Source of the DNA: Geminicoccaceae bacterium
Lineage (GTDB): Bacteria; Pseudomonadota; Alphaproteobacteria; Geminicoccales; Geminicoccaceae
NCBI GenBank assembly: GCA_028279345.1
Contig: JANQNY010000046.1
Location: 1-64,000 of the forward strand
Length of the DNA stretch: 64,000 nucleotides
Direction of reading: 5' to 3'
Of the stretch, positions 5,068-29,884 are shown in pieces; position 1 is the stretch's first letter; each line of letters begins with the position of its first letter. Position numbers and translations under genes: made by a program. Under the pieces are notes generated by a model. That model was not told the DNA's origin. It did no database searches and saw only the letters and a list, made by a program, of their open reading frames with translations.

Positions 5068-6246
5068 TCAAGCAGCCTGAGGCATCCTGCGCGGTAGGAC
5101 CACCAGACCTGCCAGTACGAGAACCAGCGGCGCGATGACGAGCAGGTTCATCGAGGTCCACCCCGCAACCCCGAGCACAGCACCGCTGAAGGACGAGGCG
5201 AGGACCACGGTGGTGAACAGAATGGTCTCGTTGACGCCTTCGACCCGCGAACGTTCCGCCGGCGCATAGGTGCTCGTGAGCAGCGTCGTCCCGCCGATGT
5301 ACATGAAGTTCCAACCGACCCCGAGCAGGACCAGACCGAGCCAGAAGTTCGTGAACGCGAGCCCTTGGCTGTTCACGGCGATGGCGGCGAGGATCAGCAG
5401 CACGCCGGCGCCGATGACCCGCTCGACACCGAGGCGAGCGATTAGTGTGCCCGTCACGAAGCTCGGCGCGAACATCCCCACGACGTGCCACTGCACGACG
5501 GTGGTCGCGTCCGAGAAACTGTGGCCACAGCCGAGCATGGCAAGCGGCGTCGACACCATCAAGAAAGCCATCGAGCTCTGCCCAATCGCAGCGCTCGCGA
5601 TCGCCAGGACGAAGCGCGGCTGGCGGACAATGGCACCGAGCGGTCGACCGCCGGCCCGCTCATGCGCCGTTGCCGGCGGCATGAAGCGCGTCAACTGCAC
5701 GACGCCGAGCATCAACATCGCCACGGTGCTGATCGCGAGATAGCAACCGGCATAGAGGTGTCGCGGCAGCAGCTCGGCCGAGGCATCGGCGATCGGTGGG
5801 CCAACGAACGCGGCGACCACCCCGCCGAGCAGCACCCAGGCGATGGCGCGCGGCTTGAGCATCGGGGTTACCGCTTCAGCAGCGGCGAAGCGAAAGAAGC
5901 CGCTGGTGCCCGCGTAGGTGCTGTAGAGGAAGGTCGCGAGGCAGAAGAGCGCGAAGCTGTCGATGACGATCGCGGCGGCGCCGATGAGCCCGGCCGTCAT
6001 GCCCAGACCGGCACCGAGCGAGAAGCCCCAACGGCGGCCGAGCCGGCCCATCAGCAGCGACATCGGTAGCGACGCTGTCACCATGCCCAAGAACTGGAGG
6101 CCCATCGGCAGCGTCACCACCAGCACGTGCGGCGCCAGCGAGGCGCCGACCAGCGCCGTCGTCGAGATGACGATCGTGTTCCCGGCAAAGAGCAGCGCCT
6201 GACACAGCGCCAGCGGCAACACGGTCTTCTGGAAGGGCATCCGCAT
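5068..6246 (-). CDS. Major facilitator superfamily transporter
   Basis: 392-residue inner-membrane protein with about 12 predicted transmembrane helices. GRLGRRWGFSLGAG near 70 is the MFS loop 2-3 motif. The overall pattern, including VGWNFMYIGGTTLLTSTYAPAERSRVEG near 310, resembles the drug/metabolite efflux MFS proteins of Proteobacteria. Substrate unknown. The start is placed at the ATG at 6246; a reading frame extends 29 codons upstream but that stretch is polar and not MFS-like. Divergent from the methanethiol oxidase gene. Confidence 0.85.
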   Translation of the reverse strand: MRMPFQKTVLPLALCQALLFAGNTIVISTTALVGASLAPHVLVVTLPMGLQFLGMVTASLPMSLLMGRLGRRWGFSLGAGLGMTAGLIGAAAIVIDSFALFCLATFLYSTYAGTSGFFRFAAAEAVTPMLKPRAIAWVLLGGVVAAFVGPPIADASAELLPRHLYAGCYLAISTVAMLMLGVVQLTRFMPPATAHERAGGRPLGAIVRQPRFVLAIASAAIGQSSMAFLMVSTPLAMLGCGHSFSDATTVVQWHVVGMFAPSFVTGTLIARLGVERVIGAGVLLILAAIAVNSQGLAFTNFWLGLVLLGVGWNFMYIGGTTLLTSTYAPAERSRVEGVNETILFTTVVLASSFSGAVLGVAGWTSMNLLVIAPLVLVLAGLVVLPRRMPQAA

Positions 6247-14298: not shown

Positions 14299-17232
14299 GT
14301 GCCGGGCACCGTGCCGACCACCACATCGCCTGACGCCCTGGCCACTGAGCCGCGCACCTCGCTCGCCCGGCGCACGCTCCTTCGTGCCGCCATCCGTATT
14401 GCCTGCGTGGTGCTCGTCGCGAGCCTCATCGGCTATCTCCACGTCCGAGAGGGCATGGAGACGCAATCCCTCGACAACCTACAACGGTACGTCGAAGAGC
14501 GGCGCGCGCGCGAAAGTCAGGTGCTCGATGCGGCGGAGGCCAGCCTCGGGAGCCTCGATGCGGCCTTCCAGAACGCGCGACGTCAGCTGCCGGACGCCTC
14601 GGATCGGTTCGCCGAGCTGTTCGTCCTGCGACCGGACGAAACACGCCGGACTCCGCGAGCCCTGTTCGACCAAGCCGGGATCAGCGGGTTCGTCGGCAAG
14701 TATGCACGGTTGACGCCGGCCGAGCGCCGCACGCTCGTTGCCGCCGTCGACGTCCTCGACCGCCTGGGCCCGGCGCTGCGCGACCGCTTCCGCAATGCCT
14801 ACCTGGTCACCGCCGACAATGCGGTCGTGATGTACTGGCCGGGCGAGCCTTGGGCGCTCGACGGTGCCGACTGGGAGATCTTCGCGAAGCTCGCCTTGGC
14901 ACCGCGCGGCCAGAACGGCGACGTGCTGGTGACCGGCGCACCTGAGGACGGCGCGCTGGTGCAAGGCCCGCAATGGTCGCCGCTCTATTTCGACTACGGC
15001 ATCAACGAGTGGGTCGTGTCGGTGACGTTGCCGGTCAGCGTCGACGGGCAGGACAGCGCGGCGCTGGGCCATGACCTGCTGGTTCAAGATCTGATCGACC
15101 GCGTCGTCCGCAGCGACATCGACGGTGCCTACAACGTCCTCATCGACGGCGATGGCAACCTGATCGCGCATCCAGCCTATATGCCGGCGATCCAGGCGCA
15201 CAGCGGCGCCATCGCGATCGACGAGACCCATGACGACCTGCTCGTCGAGCTGCGGCGCATCGCCGACACGGCTCGTGACAAGACCCGGGTGTTCGAGCTG
15301 GCGCGCCACGACGTGTTCGTCGCCTGCACGCGCCTCGCGGGCCCGGACTGGTATCTCATGACCGTGTTCCCAAAGGCGCTGATCGCGTCGCAGGCGAGCG
15401 AGGTCGCCTGGCTGATCATCGGTCTGGGCTTGGCCGCGCTCGCGGTCGAGCTTCTATTGCTGTTCAACGTCTTGCGCGGTGGGGTGGGCATCCCGTTGCG
15501 CGCACTCGCCGACGCTGCCGACCGCATTGGTCAGGACCCGAGCGCCCCGCTCGATGCGGTCGAAACGGACTTGCAGCGCCGCGATGAGCTAGGCCGTCTC
15601 GCTCGTGCATTCCATCGGATGGTGGAACAGCTACGCGCACGCCACGACGAGCTGAGCGGTCTCAACCAGGCGCTCGCCCACGAGCTGAACCAGCGCCAGG
15701 AGGCCGAGCGTGAGCTCGAACGGCACCGGGAGCTCAACGCCCTGCTGAACACGATCAACTATGGCGTGCTGTTCGTCGATCAGGATCTCAACTCACGCCT
15801 GGTGAACGCTGCCTACAAGCGCCTTTGGCACACCCCGCCCGGCTTCTTCGAGACCTCACGCACCCTGCGCGAGGATATGGAGGAAAGCCGGCGGCAAGGG
15901 CTCTATGCGGTCAGTGACGACGACTGGCCGAACTATCTGGAGCATCGGCTCAGCACGGTGCGCAACGGCGATGTCGGCCCCGAGGAGATCCACTTCAACG
16001 ACGGTCGCACCCTCACCTATCAGTGCACGGCGCTGCCCGATGGTGGCCGCATGCTGACCTACTTCGACATCACCGAGATCAAGCGCACCGAGGCGACGCT
16101 GCGAGCGCATCTCGAGGGAATGGAAGCGTCGATGGATGGCATGGCGCTACTCGATAACAAGGGTCGCTACGTGTACGTCAACCAGGCGCACGCGGAGGTC
16201 TACGGCTTCCAACGCGACGCGATGATCGGGCAGTCCTGGCGCGAGCTCTACGACGAGGAGGCGTTACGCGACTTCGAGACCTCGATCATGCGGACGCTAG
16301 AAACAACCGGGCGTTGGCGCGGCGAGACGGTCGGGCGGCGGCGCAGCGGCCGGCGCTTTCCGCAAGAGCTGTCGCTCGCGGTGACCGAAACCGGCGGGCT
16401 CGTCTGCGTCGTAAGGGACATCACCGATCGTCGGAACCGCGAGCGTGCGCTCGCTCTGGCGGTGCGTCAGGCCGAGGAGTCCAATGCGGCGAAGTCGCGC
16501 TTCCTCGCCAGCATGAGCCACGAGCTGCGCACGCCGTTGAACGCGATCATCGGCTTCACCCGCATCGTCGCGCGGAAGACGGAGGGGCAGATCGATGCGC
16601 AGCAGCACGACAATCTTCTGAAGATCCAGAGCAGCGGCGAGCAGCTGTTGCGGCTGATCAACGATGTGCTCGACATCTCCAAGATCGAGGCGGGACGCAC
16701 CGAGGTGATGAACGCGCCCTACGCCCCGGCCCTATTGGCTGTCGAATGCGCGCGGATCATCGAGCCGATGCTCGCGCCGGGGGTGCGCCTCGTGACCGAG
16801 ACGGCCGGCGTCACCGAAGGGTGCATCGGCGACGCCGCGAAGGTCCGGCAGATCCTCACCAACCTCCTCAGCAACGCGGCGCGGCACACGATGTCAGGCA
16901 TGATCCGCCTGATCGTAAGCATCGACGAGCAGGTTCTGCGGTTCGTGGTCGAGGACACCGGACGCGGCATCCCGGCCGACGCACTAGACCTGATCTTCGA
17001 GGAGTTCGGCCAGGCGCGAGGTGCGGACCCGGCGCCCCCGGGCGGCACCGGGCTGGGCTTGACCATCAGCCGCCGGCTCGCCCGTCTAATGGGCGGCGAC
17101 ATCTCCGTTGCGAGCACGCCCGGCGAGGGTTCCAGCTTCACCTTGGAGCTGCCGTGGCAACCGGTGCGCGATCAGGCCAACCGCCCCCTGAGGAAGGCTG
17201 AGCCCGTCCAGAACGCAGCCGGCGATGACTGA
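14299..17232 (+). CDS. Membrane sensor histidine kinase: dCache-HAMP-PAS-PAS-HisKA-HATPase
   Basis: 977-residue inner-membrane kinase. TM1 at about 30-50; a large periplasmic region of about 315 residues with dCache features (VTADNAVVMYWPGEPW, VLIDGDGNLIAHP); TM2 at about 369-393; a HAMP and coiled linker to about 470; two PAS domains (about 485-590 and 600-715); HisKA with the H-box SHELRTPLNAI, phospho-acceptor His741; HATPase with ILTNLLSNAARH near 853, DTGRGIP near 888 and GGTGLGL near 915. No receiver domain of its own; the next two genes supply two. GTG start immediately after the binding-protein stop; 8-base overlap with the response regulator. Likely reports ligand occupancy of the binding protein, by inference. 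Confidence 0.9.
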   Translation: MPGTVPTTTSPDALATEPRTSLARRTLLRAAIRIACVVLVASLIGYLHVREGMETQSLDNLQRYVEERRARESQVLDAAEASLGSLDAAFQNARRQLPDASDRFAELFVLRPDETRRTPRALFDQAGISGFVGKYARLTPAERRTLVAAVDVLDRLGPALRDRFRNAYLVTADNAVVMYWPGEPWALDGADWEIFAKLALAPRGQNGDVLVTGAPEDGALVQGPQWSPLYFDYGINEWVVSVTLPVSVDGQDSAALGHDLLVQDLIDRVVRSDIDGAYNVLIDGDGNLIAHPAYMPAIQAHSGAIAIDETHDDLLVELRRIADTARDKTRVFELARHDVFVACTRLAGPDWYLMTVFPKALIASQASEVAWLIIGLGLAALAVELLLLFNVLRGGVGIPLRALADAADRIGQDPSAPLDAVETDLQRRDELGRLARAFHRMVEQLRARHDELSGLNQALAHELNQRQEAERELERHRELNALLNTINYGVLFVDQDLNSRLVNAAYKRLWHTPPGFFETSRTLREDMEESRRQGLYAVSDDDWPNYLEHRLSTVRNGDVGPEEIHFNDGRTLTYQCTALPDGGRMLTYFDITEIKRTEATLRAHLEGMEASMDGMALLDNKGRYVYVNQAHAEVYGFQRDAMIGQSWRELYDEEALRDFETSIMRTLETTGRWRGETVGRRRSGRRFPQELSLAVTETGGLVCVVRDITDRRNRERALALAVRQAEESNAAKSRFLASMSHELRTPLNAIIGFTRIVARKTEGQIDAQQHDNLLKIQSSGEQLLRLINDVLDISKIEAGRTEVMNAPYAPALLAVECARIIEPMLAPGVRLVTETAGVTEGCIGDAAKVRQILTNLLSNAARHTMSGMIRLIVSIDEQVLRFVVEDTGRGIPADALDLIFEEFGQARGADPAPPGGTGLGLTISRRLARLMGGDISVASTPGEGSSFTLELPWQPVRDQANRPLRKAEPVQNAAGDD

Positions 17233-17626
17233 ACCCGAGACCACATCGGGCCACACGCGGCCAAGAGTGCTGGTCGTCGAGGACGTGGACCTCAACCGGG
17301 AACTCCTCGAGCAGCTTCTCGAAGACACGTACGACGTGCGGAGTGCAGCGGACGGCGAGGCTGCACTCGCGGAGGCGCGCGCCTGGCGGCCGCATGTCGT
17401 GCTGCTCGATCTCTCGCTGCCGAAGCTCGACGGATGGGCGGTGGCGCGGTTGATCCGCAACGACAGGGAGCTCGCCAGCATGCGCGTTGTTGCGCTGACG
17501 GCCCATGCGATGTGCGGCGAGCGCGAGACGGCCCTTGCGGCCGGTTGCGATGCCTACCTGACCAAGCCAGTGGACGAGGCGACGCTGCTCGAGGTCGTTC
17601 GGCGCGCGGTCGAGGCGGCGAGGTGA
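17225..17626 (+). CDS. Single-domain response regulator (DivK-like)
   Basis: 133 residues, receiver domain only. Acidic pocket VVEDVD, phospho-acceptor Asp62 in LLDLSLPKLDG, conserved Thr in VVALTAHAM and Lys in YLTKPVD. No output domain, so it acts by protein interaction or as a phosphate relay. It overlaps the kinase gene by eight bases and the cyclase gene by four (GTGA). Probably phosphorylated by the neighbouring kinase and competing or sharing phosphate with the receiver of the cyclase. Confidence 0.9.
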   Translation: MTEPETTSGHTRPRVLVVEDVDLNRELLEQLLEDTYDVRSAADGEAALAEARAWRPHVVLLDLSLPKLDGWAVARLIRNDRELASMRVVALTAHAMCGERETALAAGCDAYLTKPVDEATLLEVVRRAVEAAR

Positions 17627-18678
17627 GCTCGGGCGGGCGGATTCTCGTGGTCGACGACGAGGCGCTCAACCGCGATCTCTTTCAACAAGAGCTCGAGTGC
17701 CTCGGCCATCGCGCGCTCGTCGCGGAGGACGGCCGGGCGGCGCTGGCCGTGCTGGCCACGGAGCCGGTCGATCTCGTCCTTCTCGACATCATGATGCCGG
17801 GCCTCAGCGGGTTCGACGTGCTCGAGCAGCTGCGTGCCGATCCCGTACTGCGGGAGACGCCGGTGATCGTGGTCTCTGCGCTACACGACCTCGCCCATAC
17901 GGCGCGGGGTATCGAACTGGGTGCCGTTGACTACCTACCCAAGCCGTTCGAGCCCGCACTTTTGAAGGCGCGGATCGATGCGTGCCTCGAGCGCCACCGC
18001 TGGCGTGCGCAGGAGCGCGCCTATCTGGACGAGATCGAGCGAGAACGGGCGCGCGCCGATGCGCTGTTGGAGGCCCTGCTGCCGAAGGATGCCGTCGTCG
18101 AGTGGAAGGCGTCGGGGGCGGTGCAGCCGCGCGCCATCGATGCGGTCGCCGTCATGTTCGTCGACATCGTCGGCTTCAGCCGCACGGTTCTCGACCTCTC
18201 GCCCGCAGAGACCGTCGACCAACTGACGCGCTTCACGCTGGCGGCCGAGACTCTGGCCGCCGACGCCGGCCTAGAAAAGATCAAGCTCGTGGGCGACGCG
18301 ATGATGATCTCGGGCAACCTCCTCGTCGCCCATCCGAAACCGGTGCCGGCCTGCCTGGCCGTCGCGCGGCAACTGGCGGCGACCGCACGCCGTATCGGCA
18401 GCGGCTGGTCGCTACGCGGCGGTCTGACTTTCGGTTCCGTCGTCGCCGGCGTGATCGGGCGGCATCGTTTCAGCTTCGACATCTGGGGGCCGACGGTGAA
18501 CCTGGCCGCGCGCCTCGCAGCCCTGCCAGAACCGGGCGTCCTGCACCTTGACGACGCCGCCTATCGCCATCTCGGCCAAGACCTCGCGGCGGAGGCGCTT
18601 GGCGGGCTCGGCCTGCGCGGCGTCGGCACGACCCGGGTCTACCGATGTTCGCTCGACGGCGACACGAGGCGCGGCTGA
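17623..18678 (+). CDS. Receiver-class III adenylate cyclase
   Basis: 351 residues. Receiver domain 1-120 with Asp55 in LLDIMMPGLSG and the Lys of YLPKPFEP. A charged coiled linker runs from about 125 to 150 (ERERARADALLEALLP), then a class III cyclase domain at about 165-330. Metal ligands are Asp181 in MFVDIVGFS and the Asp of KLVGDAMM. The Lys before GDA and the Asp in FDIWG are the adenine-selecting residues, and NLAARL holds the transition-state Asn and Arg, so ATP rather than GTP is the expected substrate. All catalytic positions appear intact. Last gene of the operon; the GTG overlaps the regulator stop and a terminator hairpin overlaps its own stop. Confidence 0.9.
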   Translation: MSSGGRILVVDDEALNRDLFQQELECLGHRALVAEDGRAALAVLATEPVDLVLLDIMMPGLSGFDVLEQLRADPVLRETPVIVVSALHDLAHTARGIELGAVDYLPKPFEPALLKARIDACLERHRWRAQERAYLDEIERERARADALLEALLPKDAVVEWKASGAVQPRAIDAVAVMFVDIVGFSRTVLDLSPAETVDQLTRFTLAAETLAADAGLEKIKLVGDAMMISGNLLVAHPKPVPACLAVARQLAATARRIGSGWSLRGGLTFGSVVAGVIGRHRFSFDIWGPTVNLAARLAALPEPGVLHLDDAAYRHLGQDLAAEALGGLGLRGVGTTRVYRCSLDGDTRRG

Positions 18679-18847: not shown

Positions 18848-19348
18848 TCACACCGGGTAGCCGCACTCGCGAATGAGTCTCCAGATGTCGGCGTTCAGGT
18901 TAGCCAACTCCGCAAGCGCCTGCTGGATCGCCTCGACCGCGGTCTCGTCGATCGCCGAGACTTCCCCCACCTTGATGTTGTCCTTGCGATCGGCAATCCG
19001 CATCAGAATGGTTCGGGCGCTCCCGCTTTCGGCGTCGAACGAGTAGATGCAGTGGTTGTAGCGGTTGCGCAGCCCCGCAATCTTCAGGAGGCGACGGGTC
19101 AGGGTGAGTACGCGCTCACGTTCTTCAACAGGCGTGCGTTCCAGCTTCGCCAGCCGCTCGATAAGGTCGACGCGCGCACGAGTCGTGTTGAGGGTCAAGA
19201 AGACGATGACCGCCGTCTCCTTGTCGGTGCGACAGAGCCCTCCTATCAAATGAATGAGCAGACTCTCGGTATTGGTCCAAGTATAATTGAGTCGCCCAAT
19301 CAACAATAGTACGGAGTCAAACGGAACGACGCCGGCTACAGCACTCAT
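18848..19348 (-). CDS. Helical protein of unknown function with HEPN-like R-N-x3-H motif
   Basis: 166 residues, no signal peptide or membrane segment; predicted mostly alpha-helical. Residues 94-99 read RNRYNH, which fits the R-x4-6-H motif of HEPN ribonucleases, after a long helix with many Arg and Glu (ARVDLIERLAKLE). The N-terminal NYTWTNTESLLIHLIGGL segment is a plausible first helix. It overlaps the LuxR gene by four bases (ATGA), so the two are made together. The HEPN link is suggested only by the motif and helical content; many conserved alphaproteobacterial proteins of unknown role look similar. The 169 bases to the terminator on its 3' side hold no other gene. Confidence 0.6.
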   Translation of the reverse strand: MSAVAGVVPFDSVLLLIGRLNYTWTNTESLLIHLIGGLCRTDKETAVIVFLTLNTTRARVDLIERLAKLERTPVEERERVLTLTRRLLKIAGLRNRYNHCIYSFDAESGSARTILMRIADRKDNIKVGEVSAIDETAVEAIQQALAELANLNADIWRLIRECGYPV

Positions 19349-20034
19349 GACAGCAACTGAAGTGGCTCCGCCGCGGGCACGCCCTGCGAGATATACCAAC
19401 GAGCAGCGCCGGTACGATTGTACACACCGAGCTTCGTGATGATGTTGTGCAGGTGCAGTTTGACCGTGTGTTCCGAGAGCTTGAGCTCCGCGGCGATAGC
19501 CTTGTTGGATTGGCCACGGGCCACCAACTCGACCACGTCGAGCTCGCGCTGCGTCAGAACGCCATCAGCGGGCGAAACCGGTTGCCGTGACGGAACGACG
19601 GCGGCCACGACCGCTGGCTCCGTGGCCGGCAGCAGCTCCGGCGGCACGTAGGTCTCACCGTGCAAGAGCAGACGCAGGACCGAAAGCCAAGTGTCCAGCT
19701 GCCGGTTCATCGGCAAGAGCTTGATCGTCCTGTAACATGGCCGATTCTGACCGGCGTCGAGCAGCTCTTGCGCTGCTTCAGGCCGACGATACGCAAAGAC
19801 GAGGTCCGCCGAACCGGCCGCGTCGCGATAGGCCTGCCGCCGCGCCAGGAGATCGGCGCCAAGAGCCTCATCGAGAATCAGCAGACGCGCGGGCCGCCCC
19901 CCCGCGCTTGCTGTGCTCGCCATGGCATCGACACTGTCGAAGCGCCTAACGTCGAGGCCAGCAAACTCTTGCTCGACAACGCGCAAGATCCGCTTGGAAA
20001 AAGCGACGCACGTTCCTAGAAAAACGAGATCCAT
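19345..20034 (-). CDS. LuxR-family transcriptional regulator with receiver-like N-terminus
   Basis: 229 residues. N-terminal 120 residues have receiver-like strands (LLILDEALG near 55, YRTIKLLPM near 105) but the acidic pocket at strand 1 is missing, so phosphorylation is doubtful. An Ala/Val/Pro linker leads to a C-terminal GerE/LuxR HTH at about 165-222: LTQRELDVVELVARGQSNKAIA, recognition helix in SEHTVKLHLHNI. The start is the ATG at 20034 because GGAGGAGG lies a few bases upstream. It is transcribed away from the secretion genes across a 1.2 kb gap and is the likely regulator of that cluster, by position. Confidence 0.82.
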   Translation of the reverse strand: MDLVFLGTCVAFSKRILRVVEQEFAGLDVRRFDSVDAMASTASAGGRPARLLILDEALGADLLARRQAYRDAAGSADLVFAYRRPEAAQELLDAGQNRPCYRTIKLLPMNRQLDTWLSVLRLLLHGETYVPPELLPATEPAVVAAVVPSRQPVSPADGVLTQRELDVVELVARGQSNKAIAAELKLSEHTVKLHLHNIITKLGVYNRTGAARWYISQGVPAAEPLQLLS

Positions 20035-21209
20035 TAACCTCCTCCCGAGATAAGGATCGACAAGGCTCGCCACGTTTTTTTCTGTATTAACGACTACTTG
20101 AGCCAGTGCCGTGCCGAAAAACGAACGTCGGATCTCCTCAGGGTTGCGAACTCTTCTTAAACAAAAGCCAGTGGACAAAATACCAATTTACCCAAGAACC
20201 GCTTTTATCGCAACAAAACCCTAAATTACCTTTCTGTAAGACGATTTTTCACCTAATGATTGAGATGTTTGGCGTTCCTTGATCTAGAGAGTTACATCTT
20301 TTGTTAGCAGACTGCAACTCGGGAGACTATCGAGCCTGTGCATCATGTGATGCGTCTCGGTCGTATTCGGAGATGCATCGACCGCTGAACACCCTTCCAA
20401 CGAATGCCCGATCAGCGCGGCATCAGCGTTCTGAGCTCCGCGTCGCGGGTGTTGGTCCGACGGCGACGGGGAGCTGACGAGGCGGCCGTGCAGCCGTCCG
20501 TCGCCCGACCTATTGGCGCGAACCGTCTCATCGGCCCCTGCTCGAACGATCTAGTCACCCTCGGTAGTGGCGCCGTTGCTGGCGTCGATGTCGGTGGGCG
20601 GCCCTCGATGGCTGAGACCGACGGATCTCAACCACCAGACGTGCGCAACGTCGCACCGACGATCGTCGTCGGTGTCGGGCGAAAGCCAAGCGATCGGCGC
20701 GCCTCGCCATCATCGTCGTGCACGTGCAGCGCCGCTTCCTAACGTCGCCGCAGCGCGGCACGCTCGGGATTCGTGCAGAGATTCTTTATGAACTTCACCG
20801 CTGCGTCCGGCGCCGGCAACGTCAGGCGTGTCGCGCGGTCCGCGAATACCAGCGCTGTAAGTGATTGAAATCACATGAGCAATTCGATCTAGCTCGGCTT
20901 TCCAGCTTTCCGCCATACGGCCCCTCATGAGACCCTTTCGTTACGGTCGACTGAACGCGATCGGCGGTCTGGCGGGTGGAGCAGAGGCTTACGCCCGGCA
21001 GGCATCGCCGACGCAGTCAGCCGATCCGCGGGCTGAGGGATCGACAGGGGAAGGCACAATCACACCAATCTCCGCCGACGCGGTGCGCGCCCAAGCGATC
21101 GTCGCGAAGGCCTGACCTCAGTTCGAGACTAACCAGCGGGCACGGACGCACATACCACTTTTGAGATGAATGGTGGTCTGCAGCGTGCCCTCCACCCGAG
21201 GATACGAGA
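20035..21209. other. 1.2 kb intergenic region between regulator and secretion genes
   Basis: No convincing gene. The first 300 bases (about 20040-20340) are clearly richer in A and T than the rest of the window, with several A and T runs, and should hold the regulator promoter. The remainder returns to high GC. Short open frames in 20400-21110 lack ribosome sites and protein-like composition. A CRP-like palindrome lies at 20861-20874. GAGG in front of the ATG at 21210 is the ribosome site of the first secreted protein. The length suggests a complex regulatory region or a small RNA, but no RNA could be identified by reading. Confidence 0.6.
20860..20875. promoter_or_regulatory. CRP/FNR-type operator candidate
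   Basis: GTGATTGAAATCAC is an inverted repeat (GTGA-N6-TCAC) that fits the core of the CRP consensus TGTGA-N6-TCACA, with the right flank CA also matching. It sits 335 bases before the start of the low-complexity secreted protein gene. A cAMP-producing enzyme is encoded 2 kb away on the other side of the regulator. No binding has been shown; one such match is expected by chance now and then. Confidence 0.4.
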
Positions 21210-23807
21210 ATGTCAGAGCGACGCATCAACCAGACCACACCGATGGGTGATCCCAATGGCGGGACCCCGGACGACTATGTCCTGGATGGACACCACCCCA
21301 AGCATGACGGCGCCAAGGCGTGGGCCGACGCGGACGCCAAGTCCAAGAGCTACAACAAGAACAACAATAAAAATGACAACGAAAACGACAGCGATAACAA
21401 GAACGACAACGACAATCACAACAAAAACAATAACCACAATAACAACAAGAACCACGCCGACAACAAGGCAGACAACAAGGCGGAAAATAAGGCTAAGAAC
21501 GACGCCGATAACGAGAGCAAGAATTACGCCGACAACCATGCCGAAAATTACGCGTACAACAAGGCGAACAACCACACCGACGTCGATACCGACGTGGACA
21601 CCGACGTCGACGTGGACGTGGACCTAGCGCTCAACGGGCTCGAGCCGACGGACAACGATGTCGCCGACATCGACGTCTACAACGGCGCGAAGACGGGCGA
21701 CATCCTGACGGCGAAGGGCGACATCAACTTCGGCAACGATGTCGGCAGCATTCTCAACGGTTCGCTCAACGGCGGCGGCAACAACACGGGCACTGCCAAC
21801 CTCCAGTCGATCAACCTGAGCGACGACGACAAGCTCGACGGCGCCAAAGTCAGCAATGACGGCCACTTCATCCAGAAGGGCGACGCCAAGGGCGGCAAGG
21901 CCTATGCCGAGGAAGGCATTGATGCCGACTCGGACGGCGGCAACGGCAAGGGCTATGCCGATGCCGACGGCGGCGACGCCAAGGGCGGCAAGGCCTATGG
22001 CGGCGACGCGTACGCCGATGGTGGTGAGAGCGGTGACTCGTATAACAAGGCCAAATCCGGCGACGGCGGCGACAGCGGCGACGCGAAGTCGATCGGCGCG
22101 GGCTTGGGGCTCAGCAAAGGCGGTGAGGCCAAGAGCGACACGTACGGCGGCGATGGCGGCGACGCCGACAGCTACAACGAGAGCTGGAGCGACGCTGACG
22201 GCAAGAGCAAGACCTACGGCGATGCCTATGGTGGCGACGCGAAGGCCAAGAGCGACCCGGACAGCAAGGGCTACTCGGACGTAAAGCTCGACGCCGAGGG
22301 CGGCTATACGGGCGATGCGTACGCGGGTAGCAAGGCCGACGGCGACAGCAAGGCCTATAGCAAGAACTACTCGGACGGCGCCAACGGCGGCGATTCGTAT
22401 GCCAAGGCCAAGGGTGAGACCGACAACGACTCCAAGAGCAAGGCCGACGGCTACGGCGGCGATGGCGGCTATGCCGACTCGGATGGCTACGGCACCGGCG
22501 GTGAAAGCAACGCCAAGGCGAAGGCCGAGTCCGACGATGCCGACGGTGGCGACGCCAAGGGCTACGCGGATGGCTACGGCAAGGGCAAATCCGAGGCCGA
22601 GACCGACAAGGCCATCGGCGGAGACGCCGACGCGTACAGCGACGACACCAAGGCCGAGAGCGAGGGTGAGTCCGAGGCCGAGTCTGGCTATGCCGAGGGC
22701 GGCCCGGCCAAGGCCAAGGGCTACGGCGACGCAGACTCCACCGCGACCGCCACAGGCGGCATTCCTGACGGTCCTGCCAAAGCGAAGTCGGGCTACGTCG
22801 ACGACACCGGAAACGCTGACGCTGACGGTGGCAAAGCTACCAGTGGTTGGACGAAGTCGGGTGATGGCACCGGCGGTCCCGCCACGGCGACCGGCGGCAT
22901 GCACAATGCGACCGGCGGCGACGGCACCAGCGGCCCAGCAACGGCTGGTAACGGCACCGGCACCGGTACCGGCACCAACACCAGCACCGGCGGCATGGGT
23001 GGCGAGAGCGACGCTGATGCCGACGCGAAGTCGGACGCCAGCGGCACCGGCAAGGCCGATGCAACCGGCGGCGACGGCGGCCAGAACAACTCGAAGGCCC
23101 ACTCGCAGGCCGACGGTGACGGCACGGGCATGGCCGACAGCACCGGCGGCGACGGCGGTAAGGTCGACGGCTATTCGACCGCCAAGTCCGACGGCAGCGC
23201 GGACTCCCATGCGGACGCCTACAGTGGTGACGCCGATTCCGAGAACTCGGTGCACTCGACCGGCAATGGTGACACGTGGGGCAAGGCGGATGCCTACGGC
23301 GGCGACGCCAAGTCGGACGTCGACTCGCACTTCAAACTCGACTCGACGACCGACGGAATGGCCGAGGCGATTGCTGGCTACGGCGGCAACGCGCACTCGA
23401 CCACCAGCGCCGACAGCATGGCGACTGGCGAAGGCACGTCGACCTCCACGAGTGGCGCCGGTGGCGATGGCGGTTACGTCGAAGCCATGGGCGGCACGAC
23501 CGGCGACGCCAACGGCGGGCAAGCCAACGGCGGTGGGGCAACGGCCGAGGCGGCCATGGGCGGTGCCGGCGGCACGGCCACGGGCGGCGTCGGCGGCGAT
23601 GGCCACACCGGCTACTGGGGCTCGAACAACGGTGACGACGGGTTCGTGACCGGTGAGTCGTTCGCCTCCGCCGCAGCTGCGGTCGAGACGACGGCCTTCA
23701 ACCAGAACATCGTCCTCGGGGCGAATGTGCTGGGCAATCAGGTCGACATGACCGTCGTTGGTGGGTCGATGACCTCCACCGTGGTCGGCGACGACGACCT
23801 GAGCTGA
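21210..23807 (+). CDS. Giant low-complexity secreted protein, putative type I secretion substrate
   Basis: 865 residues, no N-terminal signal peptide, acidic and highly repetitive. Residues 1-45: mixed. About 47-121: almost only Asn, Lys, Asp, Glu, His and Ala. About 123-141: DVDTDVD runs. About 150-212: an ordered-looking block with GDINF and LQSINLSDDDKLDG. About 215-800: Gly, Asp, Ala, Ser, Lys and Tyr repeats built on units such as GGDAKGGKAY and AKAKSD, shifting to TGG and GDGG rich units towards the end. About 825-865: FNQNIVLGANVLGNQVDM and a VVGGSM motif. The last block and the DDDK block resemble the repeats of the next protein. Lack of a signal peptide, C-terminal conservation and the exporter genes downstream point to type I secretion. 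Matrix or surface-layer role is inference. No cysteine. Confidence 0.8.
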   Translation: MSERRINQTTPMGDPNGGTPDDYVLDGHHPKHDGAKAWADADAKSKSYNKNNNKNDNENDSDNKNDNDNHNKNNNHNNNKNHADNKADNKAENKAKNDADNESKNYADNHAENYAYNKANNHTDVDTDVDTDVDVDVDLALNGLEPTDNDVADIDVYNGAKTGDILTAKGDINFGNDVGSILNGSLNGGGNNTGTANLQSINLSDDDKLDGAKVSNDGHFIQKGDAKGGKAYAEEGIDADSDGGNGKGYADADGGDAKGGKAYGGDAYADGGESGDSYNKAKSGDGGDSGDAKSIGAGLGLSKGGEAKSDTYGGDGGDADSYNESWSDADGKSKTYGDAYGGDAKAKSDPDSKGYSDVKLDAEGGYTGDAYAGSKADGDSKAYSKNYSDGANGGDSYAKAKGETDNDSKSKADGYGGDGGYADSDGYGTGGESNAKAKAESDDADGGDAKGYADGYGKGKSEAETDKAIGGDADAYSDDTKAESEGESEAESGYAEGGPAKAKGYGDADSTATATGGIPDGPAKAKSGYVDDTGNADADGGKATSGWTKSGDGTGGPATATGGMHNATGGDGTSGPATAGNGTGTGTGTNTSTGGMGGESDADADAKSDASGTGKADATGGDGGQNNSKAHSQADGDGTGMADSTGGDGGKVDGYSTAKSDGSADSHADAYSGDADSENSVHSTGNGDTWGKADAYGGDAKSDVDSHFKLDSTTDGMAEAIAGYGGNAHSTTSADSMATGEGTSTSTSGAGGDGGYVEAMGGTTGDANGGQANGGGATAEAAMGGAGGTATGGVGGDGHTGYWGSNNGDDGFVTGESFASAAAAVETTAFNQNIVLGANVLGNQVDMTVVGGSMTSTVVGDDDLS
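21886..23640 (+). repeat. Degenerate coding repeats (Gly-Asp-Ala-Lys units)
   Basis: Irregular short repeats inside the first secreted-protein gene, for example the GGCGACGCCAAGGGCGGCAA unit at about 21888 and again near 21973, and many GGCGGCGACGCC copies. Unit length varies between about 6 and 14 codons and copies have diverged, so it is protein-level repetition rather than a satellite or a CRISPR. Confidence 0.75.
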
Positions 23808-23825
23808 TCGACTGCCGAACAAGGG

Positions 23826-23851: not shown

Positions 23852-23924
23852 TCGCTTCGGACGCAGCGTACAGGCCACGTATCGTGATGCTTGGTATTGT
23901 TGAACCTTTGGGGTGGCATTGAAC

Positions 23925-26126
23925 ATGGCACTAGACGCCGCCACCGAGACCATTGCCCACTTCGCCGGGCTCTTCGAAGTCGCCGTTGAGGCGCCTCGCC
24001 TCCAGATCAAGTTCGATGCCTTCGAGATGGAGCGCGCGTCGTCCGAGCTGGCACCCCTGGAACCGGGCCCGCCCATCGCGCTCAACGCCCCCTACGAGTT
24101 CGCGACCTATAAGGGATCGGTGAGCTACGAGCCCGATCGCGTCACCATCGACGAGACGTTCGAGTGGGCGGCCGAGCCCCTACCCCAATCCATCACCCCG
24201 CCGGCGCCCATCGTTCCACCACCCTTCGAGGCCCTGCTCGAGACAGACCTCTCTGGGGCCGGCGGCTCGGTCGTCACCAACGTCATCGTGCTCGAGGCAC
24301 CGCCGGTCGACATCCCCACGCTGCCGACCCCGCCGTCGGTCGCCACGGTGACCATCCAGCAGAACTACCTCTCCGACAACGACCTGATCACGTCGGATGG
24401 CGACATCACCTTCGCGCCGCTGGCACCATTCGCAGCGGACTTGCTGGCAGCGCAGCAGATTACAGCGGTTGTTTCGGACGCGGTGCTCGGCGACATCCTC
24501 GCGTCGGCAGCGCCGACATCGGCGTTCGCCGCATCGGTCGTCGAGCAGCTCGACCAGGCACGAGAGCCGGTCGTCGACGGGCTCGAGGCGACGATGCTGC
24601 GCGGTGCAGAGGCGGAAGGGCTCTACGTCGACGGCGTCGCGGCCGAGGAGCTGCCCGACTGGCGCGAAAGCCTCCCAGCCGCGTTGCAACCCGAGGAAGA
24701 CGGCGACAGCGAAAGCGGCGCCGATGCCGACGACAGCTCCGGCAAGCCCGGCGTAGCCGTGGCGGGCGATCCGCTCTCGAGTGACGTCGCCTCGGCAACT
24801 GCCGACGAGGACGAGCCCGACGGCGACGAGGAAACGCCACCTGAAACACCCGACAAGGATCCGTTCACGGGAACGCCGGGAGCAGACGACGACGAGGACA
24901 GCCCGTTCGATGTGGATCCGGGCCACGAGATCGTCACCGGCGCCAATCAGGTGATCAACGAGGCCGCCGTGTCCTACGGATGGCTCGACGGCAAGGTCAT
25001 CTCCGTCGCCGGTGACGTGATCGACGTCGACGTGGTGAGCCAGCAGAACCTGCTCATCGACCGCGATGGCACAAGCGGCGAGCAGGCGTCGGCTGCCGCG
25101 GCCGCACCATCACTGGCAGCGGCGAGCGAGGAGGCACCCGCACCGCGCTCGCCCGAGGCGATCAATGCCGCACGCATTTCGAAGGAATCCGCCGCTACCG
25201 ACGATTCGGCGGCGACGGCCGACCTCGACTTGCCTTCCTTCGCCGCCGTCACCCGTATCGACGGGGACGTCTCGCTATTCAACCATATCAAGCAGCACAA
25301 CTACCTCACCGATATGGACCGCGCCGAAGTAAAATTGACGGCGTCCAACTCGTTTATCGGCACCGGCGAAAATATCGCGTTCAACGAAACCTTGCTGACC
25401 GAGATCGGCCTGCGTTTCGACATGATCATGGTCGGCGGCGACATGCTCAAGGTCGACATCGTCGATCAGGTCAACGTGCTGCTCGACAATGACATCGGCA
25501 ACTTCGCCGAGATGCAGGCAAAAAAAGACGCGCTCAGCGACAATCTGCTGATGAACCGCGCCGTCGTCGAGAGCAAGTCGCTCGATACCTACAGCGCCAT
25601 GCAGGACGCCTACGCGCAGAACATGCAGGATTTCAAGGATGGGATGGACACCCTGTCCGATGAGATCATGCAAGACAGCCTCTTTGCCGGCCGGGACCTG
25701 CTCACGGCGCTGTACATCGAGGGCAACTTGTCCCTGGTGAACATCATCGAGCAGCGTAACTACGTCGGTGATCAGGACCAGGTGCATCTGGCCCGTGACG
25801 CCTTCGTCGCCGAGACCGGCGCGCCCATCACCGTCACGACGGGATCCAACGCGCTCCTGAACGCAGCGACGATCACCGAGCATGGCGTCGATTCCGTCGT
25901 CATGGCGGGCGGCGATACGTACAGCGACGCGCTCCTGTACCAAGCCGGCTTCGTGGACACCGACGCGACGCCCACGGGCGTGAGCCTGCCTGCGCTTGCC
26001 AACGAAGCGGTTGCCTTTCTCGCCGACGGCCTGGTGGCCCCGGCGGCGACGGACCACGAGCATGCGCCGTCCATGGCGGACGATTGGTCGACCCCCGTCG
26101 ACGTCATGCAAACCATGCTGACCTGA
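23925..26126 (+). CDS. Acidic repeat protein, second putative type I secretion substrate
   Basis: 733 residues, acidic, no signal peptide. A signature of the form (I/V)-x-Q-x-N-(Y/L/V)-x2-D-x-D occurs five times, near residues 143, 369, 454, 512 and 607 (for example IQQNYLSDND, SQQNLLIDRD, IKQHNYLTDMD, VDQVNVLLDND and IEQRNYVGDQD). Several copies follow a VxGGDM or VAGDV strand. Between copies 1 and 2 lies a Glu/Asp-rich disordered stretch (about 255-330). The D-x-D ends may bind calcium, although the RTX nonapeptide is absent. ATG at 23925 is preferred, with GGGGTGG upstream; a GTG lies 12 bases earlier. The exporter gene follows after 19 bases. I do not recognise a described family. Confidence 0.75.
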   Translation: MALDAATETIAHFAGLFEVAVEAPRLQIKFDAFEMERASSELAPLEPGPPIALNAPYEFATYKGSVSYEPDRVTIDETFEWAAEPLPQSITPPAPIVPPPFEALLETDLSGAGGSVVTNVIVLEAPPVDIPTLPTPPSVATVTIQQNYLSDNDLITSDGDITFAPLAPFAADLLAAQQITAVVSDAVLGDILASAAPTSAFAASVVEQLDQAREPVVDGLEATMLRGAEAEGLYVDGVAAEELPDWRESLPAALQPEEDGDSESGADADDSSGKPGVAVAGDPLSSDVASATADEDEPDGDEETPPETPDKDPFTGTPGADDDEDSPFDVDPGHEIVTGANQVINEAAVSYGWLDGKVISVAGDVIDVDVVSQQNLLIDRDGTSGEQASAAAAAPSLAAASEEAPAPRSPEAINAARISKESAATDDSAATADLDLPSFAAVTRIDGDVSLFNHIKQHNYLTDMDRAEVKLTASNSFIGTGENIAFNETLLTEIGLRFDMIMVGGDMLKVDIVDQVNVLLDNDIGNFAEMQAKKDALSDNLLMNRAVVESKSLDTYSAMQDAYAQNMQDFKDGMDTLSDEIMQDSLFAGRDLLTALYIEGNLSLVNIIEQRNYVGDQDQVHLARDAFVAETGAPITVTTGSNALLNAATITEHGVDSVVMAGGDTYSDALLYQAGFVDTDATPTGVSLPALANEAVAFLADGLVAPAATDHEHAPSMADDWSTPVDVMQTMLT

Positions 26127-26145: not shown

Positions 26146-28542
26146 TTGACCACACAAGCGCAGAAGCTGGGATGGCTCCGCAAGGGGCGCGCCGGTGACG
26201 ATAGAGGCGAAGTTTCGAACGATCTAACGGGCGATGAGCCCTCCGAACCTAGGCGGGAGGGGCGCGGGGGCGTCGTCATCCAGCACCCGCGCCGCCGGCT
26301 GCCGGAGAACGCGACGCCGGCGACCGACGATGCGGGTACGCCGCCGGCAACGGCGCCGACGCGCAATGCCTCGAAGGCAGATGCGGCTCAAGAGCCGGTC
26401 CGAGAGGTGATGGAGCCGAGCACGGCACCGGTGGGCGGCGCGGCGGCAGAAGCCGTGGAGGCGGCGCTCCCGTCCGCCGGCGCCGACCAGTCCGCATCCG
26501 TCAATGCGGCGGGCGAAGGCCACGCCGAGAACGCTCCGCCACCGGTCCGGCATGCCGACGATGCTGCCGACCGGCGACACGCGCCCGACCCGGCACGGCG
26601 AAGGCCAGCCGCGGCCTATATGCGCAAGGCCGATCCGGCCGAGGAGCCGGCCGTCGCCAAGTCAACAGAGCCCAAGGAAACAGCGGGGCTCACCATCGAG
26701 CTCAAGGCCAACGAGCCGATCCTCCGCGACGGCGGCAGCCCCCCGGATCGGGGTGGTGGCAAAGGCGGTGGCGGAGGGGGCGGCGGGGGTGCTTTTCACA
26801 AGCGCTTGGGCCCGGAGGACTTCGCGCAGAGCCTGCGCCAGGGGATCGGCGCGGTCTCCCGCAACCTCGTCTTGGTCATGGTGCTGACCTGCGCGACCAA
26901 CATCCTCATCCTGGCGATCCCGATCTATCTCTTTCAGATCTCGGATCGGGTGCTGACGAGCCGCTCGATCGATACGCTCGTCATGCTGACGGCGGTCATC
27001 GTCGGCGCCATCGTCTTCCAGTGCATCTTCGACGCCATTCGCCGCTTCATGCTGATGCGCACGGCGGTGGAGGTTGCAGCGCGCCTCGGCTCGCCGATTC
27101 TCAGCGCCGCTGCGTCCGCCTCGCTGCACGGCACGGGCCGTGAGTATCAGACCTTGGGAGACCTGCAGCAGCTCCGCAGCTTTCTCGTGTCGGGAACGCT
27201 CTTGTCGTTTCTCGACATCCCTTTCGCGCCGTTGTTCATCCTGGCCATCTTCCTCATCCATCCCGACCTCGGCGCCATCGTGGTCGTGACGGCGATAGCC
27301 CTCCTGGTGATCGCGCTCGTCAATCAGCGGATGACATCGCAGCCCTTCGCCGAAGCCAACTTCTCGCAGGCCAAGGCGAACCAGCATCTCGATTCCATGT
27401 CGCGCAACAGCCAGATCATCAACGCGTTGGCGATGATCCCCGAGGCGGTGATCATCTGGGGCCGTGACACGGCGGCGTCGCTCCGCTCTCAGGTCCGAGC
27501 GCAAGATCGCAACATCGTGTCGGCCGCCATCTCGCGTTGCGTCCGCCTATTGACCCAGGTCGGCATCCTCGGCTGGGGCGCCTACCTTGCCATCCAGGGC
27601 GAGGTGACAGGTGGCATGGTTATCGCCGCATCGATCATCGCCGGCCGGGCGCTCGCACCGATCGAGGGATCGATCGAAGGCTGGAACGCGTTTCTGCTCT
27701 CGCGCGCAGCCTATGGGCGCATCGCGCAACTGTTGAAGAGCTCGGCCCAGCAGTACGAAAAGCTCCGCCTGCCGAGCCCGGAGGGCCGGCTCGACGTCGA
27801 GCGGCTGCTGTTCGTGCCGGCCGGCACCAAGCAGGTGGTCCTCAACGGGATCAGCTTTTCGCTAGCGCCTGGCGAATCGCTGGCGGTGGTGGGCAATTCC
27901 GGTGCCGGCAAGACAACGCTCGGGAAGATGCTGGTGGGCTCGATCCTGCCGACCTCGGGCAATGTGCGGCTGGACCTCATGGACCTGCGCAACTGGGACC
28001 CCCGCCAGTTCGGCGAGAGTATCGGCTATCTGCCGCAGGACGTGCAGCTCTTTCCGGGCACGATCAAGGACAATATCGGCCGGATGCGGCCCGACGCGAC
28101 CGACGAGCAAATCTATGAGGCGGCGGTGCTCGCGGACGTCCACCAGATGATCGCCAACATGCCCAAGGGCTACGAGACGGTCGTCACAGCCGATGGCTCG
28201 CCGCTTTCGGGTGGACAGAAGCAGCGCATCGCGCTCGCGCGCGCCTTCTTCGGCAACCCGCGCATGCTGGTGTTGGACGAACCCAACTCGAACCTGGACG
28301 TCGCGGGCGACAAGGCGCTCGCGCGCGCCATGGAGCACGCCAAGACGAATGGCATCACCGTCGTCGTGATCACGCAGAAGCCAGCGCTCCTGGGCGTCGT
28401 CGACAAGGTGATGCTGCTCACGGACGGCACCGTCGCGCTGTTCGGTCAGCGTGACGACGTGCTGAAGCGCTTGAACGGGAACAAGGGTGCCGGTGGTTCC
28501 GGACCTGTTCCCAAGCCTCTCGGAGAGCAGCCCGATGCGTAA
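26146..28542 (+). CDS. Type I secretion ABC transporter (PrtD-type permease/ATPase)
   Basis: 798 residues. The first 200 or so are Pro/Ala/Glu-rich, apparently disordered, ending in a run of glycines (about 203-216); this extension is missing from ordinary PrtD proteins of about 580 residues. A membrane domain of about six helices spans 235-515. The ATPase has Walker A GNSGAGKTT near 585, signature LSGGQKQR near 686, Walker B MLVLDEP near 706 and QKP at the switch position, where His is more usual. Energises export of the two proteins encoded upstream together with the HlyD adaptor; the outer-membrane TolC partner is not in the window. TTG start supported by GGAGGA at 26132-26137. Confidence 0.9.
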   Translation: MTTQAQKLGWLRKGRAGDDRGEVSNDLTGDEPSEPRREGRGGVVIQHPRRRLPENATPATDDAGTPPATAPTRNASKADAAQEPVREVMEPSTAPVGGAAAEAVEAALPSAGADQSASVNAAGEGHAENAPPPVRHADDAADRRHAPDPARRRPAAAYMRKADPAEEPAVAKSTEPKETAGLTIELKANEPILRDGGSPPDRGGGKGGGGGGGGGAFHKRLGPEDFAQSLRQGIGAVSRNLVLVMVLTCATNILILAIPIYLFQISDRVLTSRSIDTLVMLTAVIVGAIVFQCIFDAIRRFMLMRTAVEVAARLGSPILSAAASASLHGTGREYQTLGDLQQLRSFLVSGTLLSFLDIPFAPLFILAIFLIHPDLGAIVVVTAIALLVIALVNQRMTSQPFAEANFSQAKANQHLDSMSRNSQIINALAMIPEAVIIWGRDTAASLRSQVRAQDRNIVSAAISRCVRLLTQVGILGWGAYLAIQGEVTGGMVIAASIIAGRALAPIEGSIEGWNAFLLSRAAYGRIAQLLKSSAQQYEKLRLPSPEGRLDVERLLFVPAGTKQVVLNGISFSLAPGESLAVVGNSGAGKTTLGKMLVGSILPTSGNVRLDLMDLRNWDPRQFGESIGYLPQDVQLFPGTIKDNIGRMRPDATDEQIYEAAVLADVHQMIANMPKGYETVVTADGSPLSGGQKQRIALARAFFGNPRMLVLDEPNSNLDVAGDKALARAMEHAKTNGITVVVITQKPALLGVVDKVMLLTDGTVALFGQRDDVLKRLNGNKGAGGSGPVPKPLGEQPDA

Positions 28543-29884
28543 GACATCTCAACTGCCGGCGGTCACCACGGTCTCGGGCTGGTACAATGACGTGCCACGC
28601 TCCATCACCGCCCATGCCGTCGTCGGGCTCGTTCTCATGGTCGTCGCCTTCGGCGGCTTCGGCGCCTGGGCATTCTTCGCCCCCCTCGCCGCCGCGGTCA
28701 TCGCGCAGGGTAGCTTCGTCGCGACCGGCCAAAACAAGGTGGTTCAGCACCTCGAGGGTGGCATTATTAGCGAGCTCCTCGTGAGCGAAGGCGACTTCGT
28801 CCGCGCCGGGCAGCCACTGGTCCGCATGGACGAGACCCAGGCGAAAGCGAACAAGCGAGAGCTGTTTATCCGCCAGGTGCGCCTCGAAGCGACCGCGGCG
28901 CGACTGCTCGCGGAGTACGACGGACGGGAGGAACTCGTCTTTCCCGACCGTGTTCTGGCGGCCGAGGATGACCCCGAAGTGGGAACGATCATCGATGAGC
29001 AGATGCTGGCGTTCAAGACGCGGCGGCTGTCGCTCGAGAAGGACGTCGCACTCCTGTCGCGCAACATCGACGCCTTGGACTTGCGGGCGCGCGGCTACGA
29101 GATGCAGCTCGAATCGTTCCGCGCCCAGGTGGAGATCTTCGAGGAGGAAAAAGGGGCCAAGGCGCAGCTCCTCGCCAAGGGTTTGACCCTGCGGACCGAG
29201 ATGAACGCTCTCAAGCGGGCAACAGTGGAGGCCGTCGGGCACATCGGGCGATTGGAGGCCGAAATGGCCGAGATCGACCAGATCCGCCTCCGCTACGAGG
29301 TGCAGATCGAACGGACGCAGAGCGAGTACCGGCAGGCGGCGTTGGACGAGCTGCAGCTCGTGCAGAGCGAGTTCGAAAGCGTCCGCGAAAAGATGCGCAA
29401 GGCGGACGACGTGCTGCATCGTTCGGTGGTCACGGCGCCGGTGACCGGCACCGTGTTTCGGATGCACTACCACACGCCGGGTGGCGTCATCGAGAGCGGC
29501 AAAGCGATCCTCGAAATCCTGCCGTCCGAAGCACCACTGATCATCGAAGCTCAGGTTCCGCGCACCGATATCGACAGCGTGCAGCCGAACCAGACGGCAA
29601 CCGTCAGGCTGTCGGCGCTGAACCAGCGCACGACCCCGGTGCTCTACGGGGAAGTCTTCTATGTCTCCGCCGACGCGATCGCCGATACGGCCGATGCCGC
29701 GGCGACCGAGGTCTACGTCGCCAGGATTTCTCTGGACGCAGATCAGCTCCAACGGGTCCGCGGGTTCACACCTACCCCCGGCATGCCCGCCGAGATCATG
29801 ATCCAGACCGAAGAACGGACCTTCGCCCAGTACATCGCGCGCCCCGTGGTCGACAGCATGCAGAGGGCCTTCCGCGAGCAGTGA
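28535..29884 (+). CDS. Type I secretion membrane fusion protein (HlyD/PrtE family)
   Basis: 449-residue periplasmic adaptor. One N-terminal membrane helix (about 27-50), then the lipoyl half-motif QHLEGGIISELLVSEGDFV near 73, a long alpha-helical hairpin (about 105-300), the second lipoyl half VTAPVTGTVFRM near 305, and a C-terminal beta domain with the family-typical GMPAEIMIQTEERT. It links the exporter to a TolC-type channel. The start is the ATG at 28535, overlapping the exporter gene by eight bases. Last gene of the secretion cluster. Confidence 0.92.
   Translation: MRKTSQLPAVTTVSGWYNDVPRSITAHAVVGLVLMVVAFGGFGAWAFFAPLAAAVIAQGSFVATGQNKVVQHLEGGIISELLVSEGDFVRAGQPLVRMDETQAKANKRELFIRQVRLEATAARLLAEYDGREELVFPDRVLAAEDDPEVGTIIDEQMLAFKTRRLSLEKDVALLSRNIDALDLRARGYEMQLESFRAQVEIFEEEKGAKAQLLAKGLTLRTEMNALKRATVEAVGHIGRLEAEMAEIDQIRLRYEVQIERTQSEYRQAALDELQLVQSEFESVREKMRKADDVLHRSVVTAPVTGTVFRMHYHTPGGVIESGKAILEILPSEAPLIIEAQVPRTDIDSVQPNQTATVRLSALNQRTTPVLYGEVFYVSADAIADTADAAATEVYVARISLDADQLQRVRGFTPTPGMPAEIMIQTEERTFAQYIARPVVDSMQRAFREQ

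Follow-up and report, generated by a model that had tools for sequence, protein, structure and literature searches.

A low-complexity protein and its repeat-bearing partner as a probable type I-secreted surface or matrix material of Alphaproteobacteria

We analysed a stretch of 64,000 nucleotides (the window) from a Geminicoccaceae bacterium, in which a large low-complexity protein (A) is encoded beside a second protein (B) and a type I secretion (T1SS) exporter. We consider it probable that A and B make up a two-component, type I-secreted extracellular surface or matrix material. The T1SS pair, the acidic, Cys-poor character of the candidate substrates and the design of A, with fixed ends and a variable spacer, together point to exported material of this kind.

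The gene for A and its cassette

Protein A (865 residues) is encoded by a single open reading frame on the forward strand (21210..23807), a frame that the first-pass annotation had already described, with its compositional zones, as a low-complexity protein. A has no Cys, a pI of 4.17 and a net charge of about −89, and its GC3 (0.836) is similar to that of the adjoining genes. Since an antisense ORF of 732 aa covers the same stretch (21624-23822, reverse strand) and some plasmid gene tables, themselves incomplete, list nothing at A, the frame could be spurious, a repetitive GC-rich region that happens to lack stop codons. We give this reading practically no credence, as conservation already refutes it: synteny is fixed, the frame is kept in 87 relatives, where the first-pass annotation had raised the prospect of relatives lacking it, and dN/dS lies at 0.01–0.07 in all four zones of Ensifer strain pairs with dS of 0.3–0.6 (in the pair L097 and L101, the Q/N tract has 0.01, the C-terminus 0.02, the Gly tract 0.05 and the N-domain 0.07). 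The conserved frame is the sense frame of A and not the antisense ORF, which looks like a by-product of GC-rich low-complexity codons. The ORF of A is real and coding.

The cassette holds six genes. Those of a LuxR regulator and a small protein (S) run divergently from the other four, which encode, in order, A, B, a PrtD-type ABC exporter and HlyD. The type I secretion permease/ATPase of PrtD type (26146..28542, forward strand) scores 691 bits against NCBIfam TIGR01842 (cut-off 510) and the HlyD-type periplasmic adaptor (28487..29884, forward strand) 384 bits against TIGR01843 (cut-off 209); the two are bona fide T1SS exporter genes. No outer-membrane channel (TolC/OEP) gene belongs to the conserved cassette. 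Among the loci sampled for their surroundings, OEP (outer-membrane efflux) genes stand beside it at L013 and L044, and polysaccharide-type genes at L009, L014, L021, L026 and L120. Both A and B have acidic pI values (median 4.05), Cys is missing from nearly all A members, and neither protein starts with a strongly hydrophobic segment. T1SS substrates often end in Asp and hydrophobic residues, and the C-terminus of B is of this type (DVMQTMLA-like). From synteny, we infer that A and B are exported by the ABC/HlyD pair.

The LuxR-type regulator (19345..20178, reverse strand) carries a GerE helix-turn-helix (Pfam GerE, 1.5e-19) and its position divergent from A is conserved. S (183 aa; 18848..19399, reverse strand) matches no family, and its homologues, 45–60% identical, lie beside LuxR in related loci. 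The motif R-N-x-[YF]-[NS]-H, found in 89 of 90 S proteins, resembles the Rx4-6H of HEPN ribonucleases and may be an HEPN-like Rx4H motif; S has no Pfam match. The divergent intergenic region of about 1 kb (20179..21209) is presumed from its position to hold the promoter and operator; no sigma-70-like site was found in it. LuxR and S would presumably regulate A and B. Beyond S, the window (14299-18678) carries a sensor histidine kinase gene and then response-regulator genes, one of them fused to an adenylate/guanylate cyclase domain.

We assessed the spread of the cassette with HMMs for the six genes at 80 loci, kept from a search of a species-level genome collection with an alignment of S. The full set is present at 71 of them. 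Of the nine incomplete loci, eight run into a contig end, and L082 has no LuxR match. Relatives of S are encoded in 415 stretches of the collection. B was found by tblastn in 32 plasmid records (Rhodobacter, Cereibacter, Paracoccus, Sulfitobacter, Ensifer and others), and the Rhodobacter, Cereibacter, Sulfitobacter and Qingshengfaniella plasmids carry the same neighbouring genes in the gene order of the window. Class-wide genome draws are poor estimates of prevalence because they held few carriers. The full cassette is also present on a 1.73-Mb replicon of Paracoccus denitrificans HAMBI_2443 (L008), a species for which TXSScan has reported one T1SS (PMC5588039), possibly in another strain; TXSScan may miss an exporter pair that has no channel gene. 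In the open-licence literature we found no description specific to the cassette. On a Phaeobacter inhibens plasmid, two T1SS-related ORFs have been described as being ‘for transport of exopolysaccharides’ (PMC4062626); the carriers of B or S listed from the plasmid collection include no Phaeobacter plasmid, which leaves these ORFs as no more than a possible counterpart of the cassette genes.

In the order of the host, one of 31 genomes carries the cassette. The exporter tree places the window sequence inside Rhodobacterales, as sister (99/97) to a group containing Ruegeria. Nearby, coxA is 92% identical to its counterpart in a genome of the same genus and a crtI-like gene 71%; judged by these identities, the genes near the cassette are host genes. 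Rhodobacterales placement of the exporter, together with host genes nearby, thus fits horizontal acquisition and not contamination, and the best reading of these sequences is that this host gained the cassette horizontally from Rhodobacterales. No empty site could be shown in the same-genus genome, where a different sequence adjoins the neighbouring gene.

Fixed ends and changing tracts of protein A

The Asn/Lys/Asp, Val-Asp and Gly-rich zones and the C-terminal block delineated by the first-pass annotation were recovered, and a second conserved, ordered segment that it had missed was added. The Asn/Lys/Asp tract (residues 46-122; 21345..21575, forward strand) contains 39% Asn, 16% Lys and 13% Asp; relatives have a Gln-rich tract, an Asn-rich tract or both at this position. 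It is followed by the Val-Asp tract (residues 123-138; 21576..21623), whose VDVDV-like stretches also occur in relatives. The added segment, which we call the N-domain (residues 139-245; 21624..21944), emerges from the conservation profile with 36-48% identity in relatives and the pattern PTDxDxADxD ... NGSLNGxGN ... Q.xxL.D.D ... VSNxG. The long tract behind it (residues ~246-800; 21945..23609), of variable length among relatives, is made of Gly (25%), Ala (15%), Asp (14%), Ser (10%), Thr (8%), Lys (7%) and Tyr (5%). Finally, the ordered-looking C-terminal block (residues 801-865; 23610..23804), 36-78% identical in relatives, could serve as a secretion signal and assembly module. All these segments lie on the forward strand.

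Several finer points of the earlier description changed. The AT-richness of the Asn/Lys/Asp zone, which had been put down to AT-rich codons, is due to its amino acids: third positions favour C or G, with AAC over AAT for Asn (54 to 14 in A) and AAG over AAA for Lys (55 to 9). Cys is indeed absent, but Trp is scattered (residues 38, 326, 547, 690 and 803) and not limited to the end. Tyr and Gly-Gly had been described as regularly spaced. For Tyr, periodicity analysis did not support a clearly regular spacing, the z values at lags of 24 and 28 residues being only about 2.5; Gly-Gly spacing in the window protein is irregular, with weak 12/24/26-residue autocorrelation only, while the average autocorrelation of the A family peaks at 26. 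The motif GGxGG is enriched in A (8 versus 2.1 ± 1.5 in shuffled sequences). AlphaFold predicts A to be mostly disordered (mean pLDDT 41.8, most of the model below 50); the fold prediction, which had been proposed as a check for a beta-solenoid, yielded weak strands at residues 355-465 (pLDDT ~60) and no reliable solenoid.

Across the 87 A proteins compared, conservation is limited to the two ends, and the tracts differ in length and in kind (Gln or Asn). A ranges from 277 to 1379 aa among the compared loci, its tracts from 0 to more than 1000 residues. Of the A proteins above 400 aa, 26 combine a Gln and an Asn tract, 44 have only the former, 6 only the latter and 7 neither. The low-complexity tracts thus appear to be the replaceable part of A. 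In the Gly tract, the window protein has the highest Tyr (5.0%) and Lys (7.5%) of all members above 400 aa; its Tyr richness is therefore local and not a family feature, and by this comparison the richness in both residues is peculiar to this species. Repeat number had been put forward for comparison between strains, and the number of units does change, mainly in the Gln tract: in near-identical Ensifer adhaerens strains (L097-L100, including Casida A), A has 578, 580 or 582 aa, and these 2-residue steps fall in the Gln-Gly/Gln-Asp tract.

On pSymB of Sinorhizobium meliloti Ak57 (L117:2593-3144), A has 183 aa and keeps the two end motifs while all low-complexity tracts, the Gly tract included, are absent; this is a natural minimal form, and the S gene is located after HlyD at this locus. 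In genome G190 (L015:4012-4854 and 5173-6003), two tandem short A genes of 281 and 277 aa precede B, their N-termini Gln-rich and their Gly tracts almost absent; no S gene was found near them. In Rhodobacter sp. CZR27 (L006:7626-12179), the annotated CDS spans A and B, the N-terminal part of A being in frame with B and its C-terminus in another frame, by either a sequencing error or a real change; the shorter A length at this locus is an artefact of the frame change and was left out of the range above.

Pfam and NCBIfam scans of A, B, S and their relatives returned no convincing family. The ClfA/ClfB matches of A were rejected as composition matches (about 21 bits against cut-offs of at least 999): A resembles the Ser-Asp stalks of MSCRAMM proteins (ClfA/ClfB/Sdr) in composition only (E ~5e-5), and no sortase-type context is seen around it, unlike these stalks.

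Protein B and the motifs common to A and B

B (737 aa; 23913..26126, forward strand) belongs to no known family and is built of degenerate 43-aa repeats. The B of the window has two full copies, at residues 343-385 (24939..25067) and 485-527 (25365..25493), both on the forward strand, plus partial copies; the full copies score 48 and 61 bits, respectively, with a unit HMM that was itself built from such units. The unit comprises two half-motifs, GxNxxxN...D-I-x-V-G-G (half-motif 1) and ...Q-x-N-x-L-x-D-x-D (half-motif 2). In A, the two are found at opposite ends: half-motif 2 in the N-domain (QSINLSDDD, residues 199-207; 21804..21830, forward strand) in 85 of 87 A proteins, and half-motif 1 at the C-terminus (GANVLGN, residues 837-843; 23718..23738, forward strand) in all 87. 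Half-motif 2 does not occur in the last 70 residues of any of them. Profile comparison with hhalign gave 35.8 for the C-terminus of A against B (shuffled maximum 21.0) and 30.9 for the N-domain against B (shuffled maximum 20.8), both ends of A outscoring all 60 column-shuffled profiles. The similarity spans 20-34 columns, at hhalign probabilities of 23% and 72%, and because it is so short, common ancestry of the A ends and the B repeats is likely rather than certain.

The AlphaFold model of B has a mean pLDDT of 73.4, with 310 residues at or above 90 and runs of long strands; B is thus predicted to be a long-stranded beta structure without a clear known fold. Foldseek searches of PDB and viral structures and VIA gave no significant match to this model, a result that does not prove a new fold; the best solved structures were the FapC functional amyloid and SufB/SufD, the FapC fibril ranking first at a Foldseek E of 0.66 and a VIA Z of 3.6, neither being significant. 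Sequence searches of PDB yielded no useful match for B, S or the B unit; an amine-oxidase match was discarded, as it covered only 20 residues, aligned to a Rossmann-type stretch.

The functional amyloids curli (CsgA/CsgB) and Fap (FapB/FapC) have repeated short units in which Asn, Gln and Gly are conserved, and a second component accompanies the major one. By analogy, B, alone or together with A, could polymerise into a cross-beta fibre of the curli or Fap kind, with B as its core or nucleator and A as decoration. The repetition of G-x-N-x3-N and Q-x-N-x-L-x-D-x-D in units with long predicted strands, the rank of the FapC fibril and the Q/N-rich tracts of A all speak for such a functional amyloid. 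We nonetheless hold it to be unlikely: the sequence and fold matches are not significant, the B profile matches to FapA (E 0.0039) and CsgB (E 0.15) each arose with 1 of 11 members and did not recur in 63 members, and the cassette encodes a type I exporter pair and has no Fap or curli secretion genes such as FapF or CsgG.

Proposed function and its meaning for the family

The first-pass annotation likened A to a structural polymer, adhesive or hydrogel protein rather than an enzyme, and our results support this in part. A structural, secreted and non-enzymatic role agrees with all of them: A has no enzyme-family match and no enzyme signature, its cassette holds a dedicated T1SS pair, and it is acidic, Cys-free and predicted to be disordered, with variable tracts between conserved ends. 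A more specific adhesive or hydrogel nature would be one possibility within this role. B, the exporter and the regulators, the context on which our reading depends, had escaped the first-pass annotation, as had the replaceable nature of the tracts. T1SS-exported low-complexity surface proteins are already known, and by analogy the closest functional counterpart would be BapA of P. denitrificans, an Asp-Ala repeat biofilm adhesin secreted by a T1SS (PMC5588039). Like BapA, A is large, very acidic and encoded beside a T1SS, with a low-complexity core between divergent ends. A could accordingly be an ordinary RTX or BapA-like calcium-dependent biofilm adhesin, as its richness in Asp, Gly and Ala and its T1SS context would also allow. 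This seems very improbable to us. Firstly, the RTX nonapeptide GGxGxDxUx with its hydrophobic position has no match in the A of the window, and none of 42 A members matches an RTX family. Secondly, BapA consists of 891 Asp-Ala dipeptides and its bapABCD operon includes the outer-membrane channel gene (PMC5588039), whereas sequence and k-mer counts reveal no long Asp-Ala array in A, which has Gly-rich and Q/N tracts, and the cassette has B, LuxR and S but no channel gene. Thirdly, the cassette of P. denitrificans (L008) is arranged differently from bapABCD.

The most serious functional rival is contact-dependent antagonism of the Cdz type, in which A and B would be secreted, their surface aggregates would kill neighbouring cells and S would be the immunity protein. 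CdzABCDI of Caulobacter crescentus is likewise an alphaproteobacterial T1SS with two substrates and divergent operons, whose glycine-rich substrates are retained on the cell surface as aggregates (PMC5380434), and our cassette also has two candidate substrates and a constant small protein. This reading is nevertheless quite improbable, on grounds of size and composition and because glycine zippers are not enriched. CdzC and CdzD are hydrophobic glycine-zipper bacteriocins of 84-86 aa (below 90), 75% Gly and small hydrophobic residues (PMC5380434), whereas A and B are large, acidic and hydrophilic; the zipper GxxxGxxxG is at chance in A (8 versus 6.6 ± 2.8) and absent from B. The immunity protein CdzI is an inner-membrane protein (PMC5380434), whereas S has no clear membrane segment in its conserved part.

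In the reading that we prefer, a secreted two-component surface or matrix material, A and B would be the two substrates of the dedicated PrtD-type ABC exporter and HlyD, working with an outer-membrane channel encoded outside the cassette, and LuxR and S would switch production. A would consist of two short conserved end modules, a long hydrophilic, acidic and disordered Gly/Ala/Asp spacer and a polar Asn/Gln tract; B would provide a repetitive beta scaffold with the same motifs as the ends of A. Once exported, A would assemble via these motifs with B, possibly also with other A molecules, and its low-complexity tracts may form a hydrated, sticky coat.

A bolder version, which we put forward only tentatively and think rather unlikely, makes A a split-unit polymer subunit. 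The N-terminal half-motif 2 of one A molecule and the C-terminal half-motif 1 of the next, or halves contributed by A and B, would together make up one beta unit, and chains would in this way join head to tail or onto B. The disordered spacers would be interchangeable, their length would set the mesh size of a hydrogel or fibre, and the design would hold across Rhodobacterales and Rhizobiaceae. The functional complementation of the A and B half-motifs is here a hypothesis.

What is new is a two-protein cassette with common half-motifs, found neither in family libraries nor in the open-licence papers searched; current libraries miss the system, and annotations give only ‘hypothetical protein’. 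If our reading is true, several hundred alphaproteobacterial species carry a dedicated two-protein extracellular system, and the carriers include many marine surface colonisers and soil rhizobia (S. meliloti, E. adhaerens). The A proteins would then amount to a naturally occurring set of modular protein polymers whose ends are fixed and whose spacers change freely. Such a set could serve as a model for designing hydrogels and for studying selection that acts on composition rather than sequence, as where Gln and Asn tracts interchange.
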